Source of the DNA: an uncultured Verrucomicrobiales bacterium | Lineage (GTDB): Bacteria > Verrucomicrobiota > Verrucomicrobiia > Verrucomicrobiales > DEV007 | Length of the DNA: 39,454 nt | Reading direction: 5' to 3' | Assembly: GCA_937922595.1 (NCBI GenBank) | Contig: CALAIY010000118.1 | Coordinates: 1-39,454 of the forward strand | In this document: positions 15,517 through 24,729 of the stretch, one piece after another | Numbering within the stretch: position 1 is the stretch's first letter | Layout of the letters: each line of letters starts with the position of its first letter | Position numbers and translations under genes: made by a program | Notes under the pieces: model-generated | Seen by the model: the letters and a program-made list of their open reading frames with translations, nothing else | What the model was told of the DNA's origin: nothing | Database searches by the model: none

Positions 15517-16488
15517 CTAAGTTCCGCGTGGGTTGAAGCTGCTTCCTTCAGCGAGTGCTTCCCAGAGTGGGCGCTCTGCTTCGGAGATTTCCTCCGGGAT
15601 GGCCACGATGATTGCGATGTAGAGGTCGCCAGTATTTCCATTTCCATCGGGAAGCCCTTTGCCGCGAAGGCGAAGATTGGTCCCGCCAGAGGTGCCGGCG
15701 GGGATTTTCATTTTCACGGCGCTTTCGAGGGTGCGCACCTGGACTCCAGTGCCGAGGGCGGCTTCCCAGGGGGCGAGTTCGAGATCGTGGATGAGGTCGC
15801 GCCCATCGACGCGGAACCACGGGTGGCGCTCAAAGCGGACGCGGAGGAGGAGGTCGCCAGAGGCGGCGTTGCCGGTGCCGGAATTACCGAGACCAGCGCA
15901 TCGGATAAGCTGCCCGGCTTCGACACCGACCGGAATTTTGGTGCGTATAGTCTTGGTCGATCCGTCGGGGGAGCGCAGGCTGAGTTCGCGAGTGGCTCCG
16001 TTTACCACCTCATCGAGGGTGACGAGGATATCGGTCTGGAGATCGCTGCCTTTACGCGGGCGTGACCGCCCACCACCGCCGAAGGCACCGAACGGATCGC
16101 CCGAGCCTCCGCCCATGCCGCCAGCTCCACGGAACCCTCCGCTACGCCCAAAGTGCTGCTCGAAGAAATCCGAGAAACCAGTCCCCCCAAATTCATACTC
16201 GACGCCACCTCCCCTACCTCCACTCGGGAAACCCCCTCCCCCTCCGGGGAAACCACCACCCTGCTGATTCCAGTTTGCCCCAAGCCGATCATACTTCGAG
16301 CGCTTATCCGCCTCTCCCAGCACCTCGTATGCCTCGTTGATCTCTTTGAATTTTTCTTCGGCAGTCGTCTTGTCCTCAGCGGTATCCGGGTGGTATTTGC
16401 GAGCAAGCTTGCGAAAAGCTTTGCGAATATCATCCTGCGAAGCATCGCGTGCCACGCCGAGCACCTGGTAGTAGTCACGGTATTCCAT
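15517..16488 (-). CDS. cbpA: DnaJ-class co-chaperone (CbpA-type, no zinc finger)
   Basis: A J-domain with the HPD motif ([10 protein letters not shown], near residue 33) opens the protein ([17 protein letters not shown]). A Gly/Phe-rich linker follows ([19 protein letters not shown] and [19 protein letters not shown]), then two DnaJ C-terminal beta domains ([20 protein letters not shown] onward). The CxxCxGxG zinc-finger repeats of DnaJ are missing, so it is CbpA-like, 323 residues. The frame extends to 16749, but the added 87 residues are antisense to mtfA and unlike the family. It stimulates DnaK. Divergent from mtfA with only about 43 bp between start codons. Confidence 0.93.
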
Positions 16489-16531
16489 TGCGCGCATGGT
16501 GCGCCGCCCTCGCCTACGATCAAGCATCCAC

Positions 16532-17320
16532 ATGTTCTCTTTCTTTAAAAACCGCCGCCGCAGAAAACTCCGAGCCCTCCCCTTCCCTGCCGCCTGGGAT
16601 GAAATACTTGAGGTAACGATGCCACTCTTCGCCAAGCTACCCGCCGAAGATAAGCTCACCATGAGCGAACTCATCCAGGTGTTTCTCGAAGAGAAACACT
16701 TTGAAGGCTGCGGCGGACTCAAGATGACGGATGAGATCCGAGTCACCATCGCAGCACAAGCATGCCTGCTCCTGCTCCACCTCCCGAAAGCGGATTTCTA
16801 CCCGAAGCTGAAATCGATTCTCGTCTACCCAGCCAGCTACGTAGCAGATTCATTCTCGATGAGCGAAAGCGGCCACATCCATGAAAGCGAAAGCCACCGC
16901 CTCGGAGAATCCTGGAGCACCGGCTCTGTAGTGCTCTCCTGGAATGCTGTAGAGCAAGGCGCGCTAAATACCGAAGATGGACAAAACGTCGTCTTTCACG
17001 AATTCGCCCACCAGCTCGACCAGGCCAACCCCGCCTCCGATGGAGCACCCTACCTCGCCCCCGACCTCGGGATCCGCGCCCGCCGCAGCAAATACGTAAG
17101 CTGGGCACGCGTCATGCGCGAAGAATTCGAAGACCTTCAATTCCAAGAAAAACACGGAAAAAAGACCCTCCTCGACACCTACGGCGCGACAAACCCCGCC
17201 GAATTCTTCGCCGTAGCCACCGAGACATTTTTCGAGCGACCAGATGAGCTCTCCGAAGAGCACCCCGAACTCTACCTCGAACTAAAATCGTATTTCCGCC
17301 AGGATCCCGTGACCTGGTAG
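16532..17320 (+). CDS. mtfA: MtfA-like zinc peptidase (M90 family)
   Basis: The HExxH zinc motif lies at residues 156-160 ([12 protein letters not shown]), and the downstream Glu-rich [17 protein letters not shown] matches the MtfA third-ligand region. A basic start ([12 protein letters not shown]) is followed by a helical N-domain. The start at 16532 gives 262 residues, close to E. coli MtfA (265). An earlier ATG at 16496 is possible but falls against the cbpA start. In E. coli, MtfA binds the repressor Mlc and affects glucose uptake; no Mlc target is in view here. It ends 2 bp short of the convergent nif3 gene. Confidence 0.92.
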
Positions 17321-19331: not shown

Positions 19332-20792
19332 ATGTTTCGCACCCTTCTAATTCTCGCATTCGCGGCGACCTCAGCCTTCGCTGAAACGGCGAATAGCTTC
19401 GATAACATCGTCCGCATCGAAAACGCAGCCGCCGTTCCCGATTACTCATCCCCCTGGAATCCACCCCGCCCCTCTGGCGGCAGCGGCACCGGCTTCCTCA
19501 TTGGCGAAAACCAATTCCTCACCAACGCCCACGTCGTCTCCAACGCATCCCGCGTCCTCATCAAAAAGGTAAACGACCCACAACCCTACGCCGCACGCGT
19601 CAAATTCATCGCCCACGACTGCGATCTCGCGATGCTCGAACTCGTCGATTTCACCCCCTTCAAAGGCATCGAATACCTTGAAATTGGCGACCTCCCCCAG
19701 CTAGACACCTCCGTCACCGTCGTAGGATACCCCATCGGCGGCGAGCGTATCTCCGTCACCCGCGGCATCGTCTCCCGCATTGATTTCCGCCCCTACTCCC
19801 ACTCCGGCGTAGACAACCATCTCACCATCCAAATCGACGCCGCCATCAACCCCGGAAATTCCGGCGGCCCCGTCCTCCAAGATGGCCGCGTCGTCGGCGT
19901 CGCCTTCCAAGGCTACTCCGGCAATGTCGCACAAAACGTCGGCTACATGATTCCCACCCCCGTCATCGATCGATTCGTCAAAGACGTCGAAGACGGCAGA
20001 TACGACCTCTATGTAGACATCAACGCCGCCACCTTCGAACTCGTAAATCCAGCCGCCCGCGAAGCCCTCGCTATCCCCAAGGAATATGATGGCCTCGGCG
20101 TCATGGTCGGAAGCGTCGATTCCCAAGGCTCCGCCGGAGGCGTCCTTGAAATCGGAGACGTCCTCGTCTCAATCGACAGCAATCCCATCGCCTCCAATGG
20201 CTTCATCAGCCTCAACGGAGAACAGGTAAACATGAACGAAATCGTCGAACGCAAATTCGCCGGCGATAGCGTCTCCCTCGACCTCCTCCGCGCCGGAGAA
20301 AAGCAGACCGTCTCCCTCCCCCTCAAGCCCTTCGCCCCCTATCTCATTGCCGCAAACCAATACGGAAAACGCCCCCAATACATCGTATACGCCGGCCTCA
20401 CCTTCCAGCCACTCGACCGCAATCTCCTCGCCGCGCAAAGCCTCGGCAATCAGACCGTCCGCTACTGGTTCAATTACTTCGTAATCGAAGAGCTCTACCA
20501 AAAACGCCCCGAACCCGTCATCTTCACCCGAGCCCTCGCCGATGAAATCAATACCTACATCGCAGGCTACTCCGGAGGACTAGTCGATTCTGTAAACGGC
20601 CAAAAAATCGGCTCAATGAAAGACATGCGAGACGCCCTCGCTGCCGCAGAAACCGCAGAAGGCGAATTCATCACCATCCGCCTCGTAAACGAAGGCCGCC
20701 CCCTCGTAATCGCCAAATCCAAAGTAGCGGAAGCCAACGCCCGCATCGCACGCAACTACGGAATCCGCGAGCCCTACTACATCGCCGAGTAA
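19332..20792 (+). CDS. HtrA/Deg-like serine protease with two PDZ-like domains, exported
   Basis: A signal peptide (TLLILAFAATSAFA, cleavage about residue 17) leads into a chymotrypsin-fold protease. The triad is intact: His67 (FLTNAHVVSN), Asp98 (HDCDLAMLEL), Ser177 (INPGNSGGPVLQDG). A PDZ domain follows (GLGVMVGSVDSQGSAGGVLEIGD, about 240-330). A second, weaker PDZ-like unit lies near the end (GYSGGLVDSVNGQKIGSMKDM). 486 residues fits a periplasmic quality-control protease. It is 34 bp after ychF and 41 bp before its paralogue at 20833, so the pair is probably co-transcribed. Confidence 0.9.
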   Translation: MFRTLLILAFAATSAFAETANSFDNIVRIENAAAVPDYSSPWNPPRPSGGSGTGFLIGENQFLTNAHVVSNASRVLIKKVNDPQPYAARVKFIAHDCDLAMLELVDFTPFKGIEYLEIGDLPQLDTSVTVVGYPIGGERISVTRGIVSRIDFRPYSHSGVDNHLTIQIDAAINPGNSGGPVLQDGRVVGVAFQGYSGNVAQNVGYMIPTPVIDRFVKDVEDGRYDLYVDINAATFELVNPAAREALAIPKEYDGLGVMVGSVDSQGSAGGVLEIGDVLVSIDSNPIASNGFISLNGEQVNMNEIVERKFAGDSVSLDLLRAGEKQTVSLPLKPFAPYLIAANQYGKRPQYIVYAGLTFQPLDRNLLAAQSLGNQTVRYWFNYFVIEELYQKRPEPVIFTRALADEINTYIAGYSGGLVDSVNGQKIGSMKDMRDALAAAETAEGEFITIRLVNEGRPLVIAKSKVAEANARIARNYGIREPYYIAE

Positions 20793-20832
20793 ATTCGCCA
20801 CCATTTTTCCCAAGAGCCCAAAGCCACCCGCC

Positions 20833-22380
20833 ATGCGCCCCCTCATTCTCCTAGCCGCAATCTCCTTCCTCACCGGAATCTCCACCGCAGAAGACCTTCC
20901 CAAGAAAAACCCTGAGATCGCCCCCATCACCGCCAAGATCGAAACCTCCAAAAAAGCTGCGGAAACTTCCCCAAAAAACTCCGTCCTCCGGGTAAACGTC
21001 ACCTCACAACGCTATAACTTCCGCCTCCCCTGGCAGAAAACCTCCCCCAATTCCAAACGCACCTTCGGTGCTCTCGTCGCAGGAAATCGCGTCCTCGTCA
21101 CCGCAGATGTCGTCGCCGATGCCACCTACCTCGAAATCGAAAAACCTACCTCTGGCGAAAAAATCACCGCCAAAGTAGAAGGAGTCGATTACGAAGCAAA
21201 CCTCGCACTCGTCGCCCCCGCCGTTCCCGCCGAAGACTTCTTCGATGGCCTCACCCCCATGTCCCTCGACACCGAAGCCGCCATCGGTGCCCCACTCGAA
21301 GTCTGGCACTTCGAATCAAACGGCAACCCACTCACCACCAAGCTCACGCTTGATAACTACGACATGGGCACCTACTTCCTCAGCGGCTCCTACTTCCTCA
21401 CCTACGAAGCCTCCGGTACTATCTCCTATCGCGACGGCTCCTACACCTTCCCTGTCGCAAAAAACGGCAAGCTCGCAGGCATCCTCATCGATTACTCCTC
21501 CTCGAATGAGCTCTCTACCATCATGCCGGCATCCATCATCGAGCACTTCCTCACCGACCTCGCCTCCCCACCCTACCGCGGATTCCCCAATTTCGGCATC
21601 CGCTACTCCAACACCCTCGATAGCCAACTAAGAAGCTTCGTTGAAATGGGCGACACCACCGGCGGCATCTTCATCTCCGGCGTCATCCCCGGAGCCTCAG
21701 CCGCGAAAGCAGGCATCGAAGAGGGAGACGTCATCACCAACATCGCAGGACACGATATCGATTCCCGCGGAAATTACGAAGACCCCACCTACGGCACCCT
21801 CTCGATCTCCCACCTCGTGAAAGGCAGCGTCTTTGCCGGTGATACCATCCCCGTCTCACTCCTTCGCAAAGGCAAAGAAATGGAATTCGAAGTAAACCTC
21901 ATCCGCAAAGAACCCAGCGATTATCTCGTACGCCCCTACAGCTTCGACCGCGCCCCACGCTACTACCTCCTCGGAGGAATGCTCTTCCAAGAACTCTCCC
22001 AAGATTATCTCGAATCCTATGGCGATAAATGGCGCTCCCGCGCCCCCTTCAAGCTCGTCTACGCCGCCGCCAATCAAGAGCAATTTGAAAAAGAAGGTCG
22101 CAAAAAACTCGTTTTCGTATCCGGCACACTCCCCACCCAAAGCACCCTTGGCTACGAAACCCTCTCCGGCACCATCGTGGATAAAGTGAATGGCAAATCC
22201 ATCGGCTCCCTCGATGACCTCGACGCAGCCGTAGCAGCCCCCCCAGAAAATGGAATCCACCGCATCGAATTCTCCGAATTTCCCCATCAGCTCTTCATCA
22301 GCGAAGACGCTGCAAACAAAGACGAAGCCGAAGTCCTCACCCAGCGCTTCCGCATCGAGAAGTTGAAGCAGCTCAATTGA
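20833..22380 (+). CDS. HtrA-like pseudoprotease (catalytic triad lost), exported paralogue of the preceding gene
   Basis: It has the same architecture as the upstream protease: signal peptide (LILLAAISFLTGISTAE), protease fold, PDZ-like domain (GGIFISGVIPGASAAKAGIEEGDVI) and a C-terminal unit like the neighbour's (GTIVDKVNGKSIGSLDDLDA). Every triad position is changed: TNAHVV has become TADVVAD (His to Asp92), CDLAML has become ANLALV (Asp to Asn123), and the GNSGGPV block is replaced by GSYTFPV (Ser to Tyr204, by alignment on the shared Pro-Val). The frame is clean over 515 residues, so this is a maintained non-catalytic protein, perhaps a scaffold or regulator of the active partner. That role is inference. 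Confidence 0.85.
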   Translation: MRPLILLAAISFLTGISTAEDLPKKNPEIAPITAKIETSKKAAETSPKNSVLRVNVTSQRYNFRLPWQKTSPNSKRTFGALVAGNRVLVTADVVADATYLEIEKPTSGEKITAKVEGVDYEANLALVAPAVPAEDFFDGLTPMSLDTEAAIGAPLEVWHFESNGNPLTTKLTLDNYDMGTYFLSGSYFLTYEASGTISYRDGSYTFPVAKNGKLAGILIDYSSSNELSTIMPASIIEHFLTDLASPPYRGFPNFGIRYSNTLDSQLRSFVEMGDTTGGIFISGVIPGASAAKAGIEEGDVITNIAGHDIDSRGNYEDPTYGTLSISHLVKGSVFAGDTIPVSLLRKGKEMEFEVNLIRKEPSDYLVRPYSFDRAPRYYLLGGMLFQELSQDYLESYGDKWRSRAPFKLVYAAANQEQFEKEGRKKLVFVSGTLPTQSTLGYETLSGTIVDKVNGKSIGSLDDLDAAVAAPPENGIHRIEFSEFPHQLFISEDAANKDEAEVLTQRFRIEKLKQLN

Positions 22381-23192: not shown

Positions 23193-23945
23193 ATGCGCAC
23201 ACTCCTTCTCTTCCTTCTCACTGCCGCCATAGCCTGCGGTGCCCCCACCGATTACCAAAGCAGAGGAATCGAGCACTTCTTCAAGGCAGAGATCGACGCC
23301 GCCATTTCGGATTTCGATACCTACCTCTCTCACAATCCACGAGCAGCCCCCCACCACTGGCAGCGCGGAATTGCACTCTACTACGCCGGGCGTTTCGATG
23401 AAGGAGCCGTCCAATTTGAAAAACACCGGGAGGTAAACCCTCACGACGTCGAAAACGCTGTTTGGCTTTTTCTGTGCAACGCCCATGCGATCTCACTCGC
23501 CACAGCCCGCGCATCGATCATTCCCTACACCCACGATCCACGCATCCCCATGCGCCAGATCCACGCCCTCTTCGCCGGCACCGGAACCAAGCAAGCCGTC
23601 CTCAAAGCCACTAAAAGCGGCAGCCCCTCCCCTTCCGAACTCCGCAGCCGCCTCTGCTACGCCCATCTCTACCTCGGCCTCCACGCCGAAGCCCATAGTG
23701 ATCGCAAGCTCGCCCTCGAGCACATCAAAAAAGCCGCCAATATCTACGCAATGCCCCACTACATGGGCAAAACGGCCAAAGTTCACCTCAAGCTCGGCGG
23801 CCCACGAAAGCCAATCCCCAGCCCCGATACCATCCCCGTCGCAACTCCGGCACTCCCCAGCCGCGATCCCCTAGCCCCATCGGCCGAGCTATTCCCCACA
23901 ACGCCACTTGAAGAGCCCAAGCCTTCCCCAAAAGAAGACCGGTAA
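23193..23945 (+). CDS. Exported TPR-type protein
   Basis: A signal peptide (TLLLFLLTAAIACGAP) is followed by at least one TPR-like pair of helices (YQSRGIEHFFKAEIDAAISDFDTYLSHNPRAA..., then HWQRGIALYYAGRFDEGAVQFEKHREVNP). A further helical stretch holds LRSRLCYAHLYLGLHAEAHSD and ALEHIKKAANIYAMPHYMGK. The last 45 residues are Pro-rich and probably disordered. 250 residues. It likely acts as a periplasmic protein-protein adaptor; no enzyme motif is present. It is 42 bp after the HAD gene and convergent with the CPBP protease gene. Confidence 0.8.
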   Translation: MRTLLLFLLTAAIACGAPTDYQSRGIEHFFKAEIDAAISDFDTYLSHNPRAAPHHWQRGIALYYAGRFDEGAVQFEKHREVNPHDVENAVWLFLCNAHAISLATARASIIPYTHDPRIPMRQIHALFAGTGTKQAVLKATKSGSPSPSELRSRLCYAHLYLGLHAEAHSDRKLALEHIKKAANIYAMPHYMGKTAKVHLKLGGPRKPIPSPDTIPVATPALPSRDPLAPSAELFPTTPLEEPKPSPKEDR

Positions 23946-23976: not shown

Positions 23977-24729
23977 CTACCAAAAACCGTATTGCCCAGT
24001 CACCAGCACGTAGATTCCGAGCGCGAGATTCGCCACCGCATGCATCACCACGCACGCCCCCAGAGACTTCGTCCGAATCGCCAGCCACGCCATAGCAGAG
24101 CCAAAAATGATCGCGCCAAGCCAATCTACTGGGCTATGCGCCATCGTGACCATCAGCGTCGTAATTGCCACCGCCTTCAGCTGCCAAGTACCAAACGGAG
24201 TTTTTCGAAAATCACGATCCGTATCCACTAGCCAACGCATCAAAAAACCGCGCCAAAAAAGCTCCTCCACAAAAGGCACCAGGCAAGCCATCCGAACAAA
24301 TCGCATCGCAATCGCCGAAATCTGAGCCGAGCGGCTCTCCGAAAATACCGAAGGATCAAACCCATCCAGCCGCGGAGTCAGCCCGAGAAATCGATACCAC
24401 TTCTCACCATCAGGATCATCCAATCCAAGCCAGAGATAAAGATTCGCAGGAAGCACCCAGATAGCGATCGTCAAAATCCCCAAGATCACCGCCAAGCCAA
24501 AGCCACGAAAAGGGCGGAACGCATAATGCTTCCAAAAAAACGCGAGCACCCCCGCCACCACTAAAGTCTGGATCGGATACACCCACTGCTCGGGCGCACG
24601 GATATACCACGGCTGATCGGGATGGTCGATCAGCACCAATCCCGGCACCATGAGGAACGCCATAAAAACGCCCAGCGGCGCCGCGTGCGCCCAAACCGGG
24701 TTTTCCCGAATATTTGCTAGAGATGCCAA
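23977..24729 (-). CDS. CPBP/CAAX-type intramembrane metalloprotease (exosortase-associated type)
   Basis: A polytopic membrane protein of about 250 residues. The conserved motif EExxxR is VEELFWRGFLMR (Glu155, Glu156, Arg160). The two catalytic His lie in TMAHSPVDWLGA and CVVMHAVANLALG. The pattern and the spacing DFRKTPFGTWQ resemble the CAAX-protease-related proteins found with exosortase/PEP-CTERM sorting systems. No exosortase or PEP-CTERM protein is in this window. The frame opens with TTG at 24729; the first ATG is at residue 23. It probably processes membrane peptides. Convergent with the TPR gene. Confidence 0.88.
   Translation of the reverse strand: MASLANIRENPVWAHAAPLGVFMAFLMVPGLVLIDHPDQPWYIRAPEQWVYPIQTLVVAGVLAFFWKHYAFRPFRGFGLAVILGILTIAIWVLPANLYLWLGLDDPDGEKWYRFLGLTPRLDGFDPSVFSESRSAQISAIAMRFVRMACLVPFVEELFWRGFLMRWLVDTDRDFRKTPFGTWQLKAVAITTLMVTMAHSPVDWLGAIIFGSAMAWLAIRTKSLGACVVMHAVANLALGIYVLVTGQYGFW

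Follow-up and report, generated by a model that had tools for sequence, protein, structure and literature searches.

The P1 and P2 genes and their surroundings

Two adjacent genes of the HtrA type, here called P1 and P2, were located on contig C118, part of a draft genome of 3.27 Mb that belongs to the Verrucomicrobiota. The whole stretch of DNA that was analysed, 39,454 nucleotides, is referred to as the window. A first-pass annotation of the window had described the genes as a tandem at 19332-22380, and these coordinates proved to be exact, with both genes on the same strand and 40 bp apart. The features of the pair are listed below.

19332-20792, + strand: P1, predicted exported and active HtrA serine protease of 486 aa with the triad kept in orthologues; signal peptide, trypsin-like domain, PDZ and PDZ_3 (Deg2/Deg9 type)
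19530-19532, + strand: codon of the catalytic His67 of P1, in a TNAHV setting
19623-19625, + strand: codon of the catalytic Asp98 of P1, in a DCDLA setting
19860-19862, + strand: codon of the catalytic Ser177 of P1, in a GNSGGP setting
20793-20832, + strand: spacer of 40 bp between the P1 stop and the P2 start
20833-22380, + strand: P2, predicted exported HtrA pseudoprotease of 515 aa with the full Deg2/Deg9 fold and intact PDZ and PDZ_3
21106-21108, + strand: Asp92 of P2, at the position of the P1 His according to sequence and profile alignment
21199-21201, + strand: Asn123 of P2, at the position of the P1 Asp; Asn in 125 of 130 orthologues
21442-21444, + strand: Tyr204 of P2, at the position of the P1 Ser; aromatic in 117 of 130 orthologues

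The conserved same-strand adjacency of P1 and P2 implies co-transcription, and no sigma-70-like site was found in the P1/P2 region. The closest named relatives of P2 were in records titled Verrucomicrobiales, Verrucomicrobiaceae, Akkermansiaceae, Prosthecobacter and Verrucomicrobium. Two further HtrA proteins with ordinary intact motifs are encoded in the same genome, so the pair adds to the standard HtrA complement and does not replace it.

Genes for protein handling were observed around the pair, between 15517 and 24729 of the window. A DnaJ-type protein (15517-16749, - strand), an M90/MtfA-like metallopeptidase (16496-17320, + strand) and a CPBP/Rce1-like membrane peptidase (23977-24729, - strand) share this neighbourhood, and the cluster was not conserved in other genomes. 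Downstream of P2, at 23193-23945, a 250-aa exported-looking protein with no Pfam match is encoded. Further neighbours included YchF, a HAD hydrolase and others, none of them magnetosome-related.

Domains, fold and catalytic positions

Pfam matches for P1 were Trypsin_2 (1.5e-26), PDZ_2 and PDZ_3 (1.8e-21), and for P2 PDZ_2/PDZ_6 and PDZ_3 (2e-24) with no further domain. A Trypsin_2 match in Pfam was absent for the window's P2, leaving the N-terminal half unrecognised, and was detected in 17 of 51 P2 orthologues. Caution is advisable in annotation, as two thirds of the P2-type genes receive PDZ-only Pfam calls and can easily be taken for generic PDZ proteins. P1 and P2 are 23-24% identical, with 23% (E 3e-24) in full-length BLASTP, and profile-profile alignment of the two families matched end to end over 464 columns (probability 100%, E 3.8e-83). 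The motifs VNGQKIGS and VNGKSIGS were both present at the C-termini, and a signal-peptide-like stretch was seen in both N-termini, as judged by eye. The common signal peptide, protease domain, PDZ and VNGxxIGS unit claimed in the first-pass annotation were in this way borne out by the profiles, the fold match described below and the motifs.

The best PDB relative by sequence was Deg2 for P1 (6e-80) and Deg9 for P2 (2e-31). Arabidopsis Deg2/Deg9 (PDB 4fln, 5il9, 5ilb) have the same domain order and fold and are the closest solved relatives of both proteins. AlphaFold models, for which fetched sequences were aligned with those of the window, reached a pLDDT of 91.8 for P1 and 92.6 for P2. The P1 model matched Deg2 with a Z of 39.5 over 453 residues, and the P2 model matched Deg2/Deg9 over residues 44-515 (Z about 39, rmsd 2.3) and Deg9 in Foldseek (E 1.8e-38). 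P2 is thus predicted to keep the HtrA fold over its whole length. A Pro-Trp pair is invariant and common to P1 and P2, and is also found in Deg2 and Deg9. Together with Gly, Asp and Arg residues in the PDZ parts, this pair makes up the most conserved positions of P2. The protease domain was less conserved in P2 than in P1 (mean modal frequency 0.57 vs 0.74), and the PDZ parts of P2 were conserved about as well as those of P1.

H67, D98 and S177 of P1 align with D92, N123 and Y204 of P2. The P1 triad was intact in 128 of 128 distinct sequences where the residue was present, one sequence being without the His stretch. Among 130 distinct P2 sequences, the nucleophile position held Phe in 98, Tyr in 11, Trp in 8 and other residues in 13, and Ser in none; the Asp position held Asn in 125 and Asp in 3. 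Glu, Gln or Asp occupied the His position in 117 sequences and His in 2, and the full triad was found in 0 of 130. Both the intact triad of the first gene and the Asp, Asn and Tyr reported for the second were therefore recovered, and the catalytic positions of P2 did not vary back and forth between the active and the inactive state among orthologues. The Gly-Asn-Ser-Gly-Gly oxyanion motif is gone from P2. Most P2 sequences carry a two-residue insertion in the Ser loop, on account of which the registration of S203/Y204 could shift by one; the residue directly preceding the nucleophile position was a Ser in 101 of 130 sequences, and this Ser was missing from deep lineages. Since the His and Asp positions align gap-free, the catalytic loss is regarded as settled, and P2 is, judged from its sequence, a catalytically dead pseudoprotease.

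Distribution, linkage and history of the pair

The PDZ_3 domain (PF17815) was used as the marker in the search for the pair. All 14 control genomes lacked it. Across the phylum, 112 of the 289 sampled genomes had it, and so did 137 of 236 in the class, 124 of these 137 with two copies or more. For the window's family the figure was 56 of 59, nearly all with two copies. Within the order, 51 of 52 genomes (the window's own included) carried two PDZ_3 proteins, and in the single exception P2 was cut off at a contig end. The second gene, whose sporadic occurrence would have spoken against the first-pass reading, is not sporadic: nearly all genomes of the order have it, and it is spread widely through the phylum. 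Every lone PDZ_3 copy that was typed turned out to be an active protease belonging to one of two other subfamilies, a P1 or P2 truncated where its contig ended, or a fragment. P2 without P1 was not found in any well-covered genome, and lone P2 was seen only at contig ends. A collection scan with a shallower P2 alignment kept 80 loci, all in records titled Verrucomicrobiota, so that P2 is known within the phylum. Many Verrucomicrobiota are without both genes, and the module is evidently dispensable in some lineages.

Wherever both genes were present (153 of 153 loci), P1 preceded P2 on one strand, a conserved adjacency of active and inactive paralogue of the kind that the first-pass annotation had proposed to look for. 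The 153 loci include some genomes fetched by two routes; the distinct sequences number 128 for P1 and 130 for P2. The estimated gap had a median of 34 bp and was 60 bp or less in 145 of the 153 loci. In four genomes (G002, G313, G273 and G316) the genes were on different contigs or far apart, and adjacency is thus inessential. No other conserved gene was found around the pair in the 46 loci compared, nor was a wider operon. A sequencing or frameshift artefact was ruled out as the origin of P2, because the same arrangement occurs in independent genomes. The two longest P2 open frames, 1100 aa in G369 and 1033 aa in G429, were considered as P1-P2 fusions and rejected, since P1 and P2 do not share a reading frame there.

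A tree of 83 proteins placed the P1 sequences in one clade (support 96) and the P2 sequences in another (support 100), both separate from the single-copy subfamilies. The same main sub-clades were seen in both, in mirrored branching. Separate clades with matching sub-clades suggest that catalysis was lost in P2 probably once, before several classes of the Verrucomicrobiota diverged. A grouping of P1 and P2 as sisters, with the single-copy subfamilies outside, received a support of 30, and P2 likely arose from P1 in a simple tandem duplication. Median dN/dS between closely related pairs was 0.07 for P2 and 0.056 for P1, and P2 evolves faster than P1. P2 has been retained under strong purifying selection since the ancient duplication. 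The clean frame of 515 codons, taken earlier as a sign that the gene is being kept, is in agreement with both the dN/dS and the distribution. A dead copy kept under such selection very probably functions as a partner of P1 and is not debris.

Single-copy PDZ_3 proteases were encountered outside the pair. A long-branched active subfamily of the same class (L239-L244, L338-L340, L342 and L343) was never found with a dead partner adjoining. Deeper families of the phylum (L041-L070) have a single active PDZ_3 protease, which scores much more strongly for PDZ_3 and is mostly partnerless; this is possibly the ancestral state. One further PDZ_3 protein, L344 (G487), with NCHVV as His motif and GSSGGAL as Ser motif, stood apart from all other groups.

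Probable functional coupling and relation to known systems

Branch rates were compared on a fixed RpoB and GyrB tree of 29 genomes. The partial rho between P1 and P2 was 0.81 given RpoB and GyrB (p 9e-14), and the partial rho of P1 with GyrB and of P2 with GyrB was about 0 given RpoB. With LptD as envelope control (17 genomes), rho was 0.87 for P1 and P2 against 0.61 and 0.66 with LptD, and 0.75 remained for P1 and P2 after LptD was removed as well. This covariation supports a functional coupling of P1 and P2. Shared expression, linkage or joint transfer can also produce covarying rates in neighbouring genes without contact.

HtrA proteases are textbook homo-oligomers under the control of PDZ-bound peptides; they form trimers and larger cages, and PDZ ligands set their activity. 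It appears fairly probable that P1 and P2 constitute an obligate two-gene HtrA module of the envelope, in which P2 is the non-catalytic partner of P1, either as a subunit or as an allosteric or PDZ-based regulator; the scaffold or allosteric controller suggested in the first-pass annotation is compatible with this. P1 would carry out the proteolysis. P2 would derive from the same Deg2/Deg9-like ancestor, and the loss of its three catalytic residues would have been a single, early event. P2 would most likely enter mixed P1/P2 trimers or hexamers, or a P2 trimer would stack on a P1 trimer. The two PDZ domains of P2 and its protease-fold scaffold may recognise substrates or stress peptides, and P2 would set or tune the activity of P1. 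We infer physical contact between the two proteins and a role of the module in envelope protein quality control, with a mixed P1/P2 oligomer as the most economical mechanism. By analogy with the action of MamO on MamE, the effect of P2 on P1 is more likely to be activation.

A different explanation could be that P2 works independently as an exported chaperone or PDZ adaptor, acting in the same stress pathway with no contact to P1, adjacency serving to secure joint expression. The PDZ and PDZ_3 domains of P2 are well conserved, separation of the genes is tolerated in four genomes, and co-transcription alone would yield shared rates, LptD covarying too (rho 0.61-0.66). The weaker conservation of the P2 protease domain, next to PDZ parts conserved as in P1, likewise fits an adaptor as well as it fits a mixed oligomer. 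However, P2 without P1 was not found in well-covered genomes, the covariation persisted after LptD was removed, and the predicted P2 model retains the full fold of the oligomer-forming Deg2/Deg9, and an adaptor without contact to P1 was judged rather unlikely. It is improbable, to a higher degree, that the dead site was repurposed as a ligand or metal sensor that signals to P1 in the manner of MamO (PMC4794232). Such a sensor would fit dead-site residues that are conserved in kind (Asn in 125, Glu, Gln or Asp in 117 and an aromatic residue in 117 of 130), a constraint above that expected from neutral decay, but neither a conserved His pair nor a metal-ligand cluster was identified among the conserved P2 sites, and the top sites lie elsewhere.

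Very little weight was given to the idea that P2 has retained protease activity through a rearranged, non-canonical active site. The upstream Ser in 101 of 130 sequences could be cited for it, as the loop insertion leaves the registration uncertain, but that Ser is missing in deep lineages, the oxyanion motif is gone, and His is lacking in 128 and Asp in 127 of the 130 sequences. Decay into a pseudogene, which the loss of three catalytic residues and the faster evolution of P2 might suggest, is refuted by selection and distribution and hardly deserves consideration: a long frame was open in every complete locus examined, dN/dS is about 0.07, and P2 has been retained since before several classes diverged.

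The pairing of a live and a dead HtrA-like protein is already known from magnetotactic bacteria and, in fused form, from plants. MamO activates MamE-dependent proteolysis, and MamE and MamO resemble P1 and P2 in being an active HtrA and a dead trypsin-like partner (PMC4794232). MamO differs in several respects: it is trypsin-like but distantly related, carries a transporter (TauE) domain as well as a di-histidine metal site, and is restricted to the magnetosome island, whereas P2 is a true paralogue of P1 with the whole protease-PDZ-PDZ_3 architecture and occurs phylum-wide. Neither a TauE domain in Pfam nor a magnetosome island context among the neighbouring genes was found for P2, and no His pair was seen among its conserved sites. 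In plants, Deg7 likewise has an active unit followed by an inactive one, and its inactive protease domain reportedly participates in trimerisation (PMC3473262). Deg7 is one fused chain with four PDZ domains, unlike P1 and P2, which are two Deg2/Deg9-type exported proteins encoded in separate reading frames. MamO and Deg7 were absent among the structural matches listed, which excludes nothing. P1 and P2 are regarded as a lineage separate from MamE/MamO and Deg7, the inactive half of Deg7 being compared by arrangement.

Deg2 and Deg9 are active proteases, whereas P2 is without the triad, and neither of them is known to have a dead partner gene. CspB, CspA and CspC of Clostridioides difficile are subtilisin-like and not HtrA proteins. 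This bacterial system is similar in having pseudoproteases that serve as non-catalytic signalling subunits, and differs in acting in spore germination and in that the two dead members pair together, in a complex without CspB (PMC12880746).

The phylum-wide, ancestral P1/P2 paralogous pair in the Verrucomicrobiota would be the new element here. The absence of a described two-gene system of this kind in the phylum, noted with reservation in the first-pass annotation, agrees with the open-licence literature, in which no description of the pair, or of any HtrA pseudoprotease in Verrucomicrobia or Akkermansia, was found. A dead paralogue beside a live one through much of the phylum suggests that the regulated unit is a hetero-oligomer; if true, this would be a bacterial counterpart of pseudokinase control. 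It is proposed tentatively, with slightly less than even confidence, that the Verrucomicrobiales throughout, and probably Akkermansia, possess a phylum-wide ancestral hetero-oligomeric HtrA, undescribed before, in which the activity of the live subunit depends on a dedicated pseudoprotease subunit rather than solely on a peptide signal. The phylum has cultured members, in which a pseudoprotease as built-in HtrA regulator is directly testable. The pair was also present in the compact genomes (2.2-3.5 Mb) of genus g19 (L111, L112 and L117), which is probably Akkermansia, and there P2 was evolving unusually fast.
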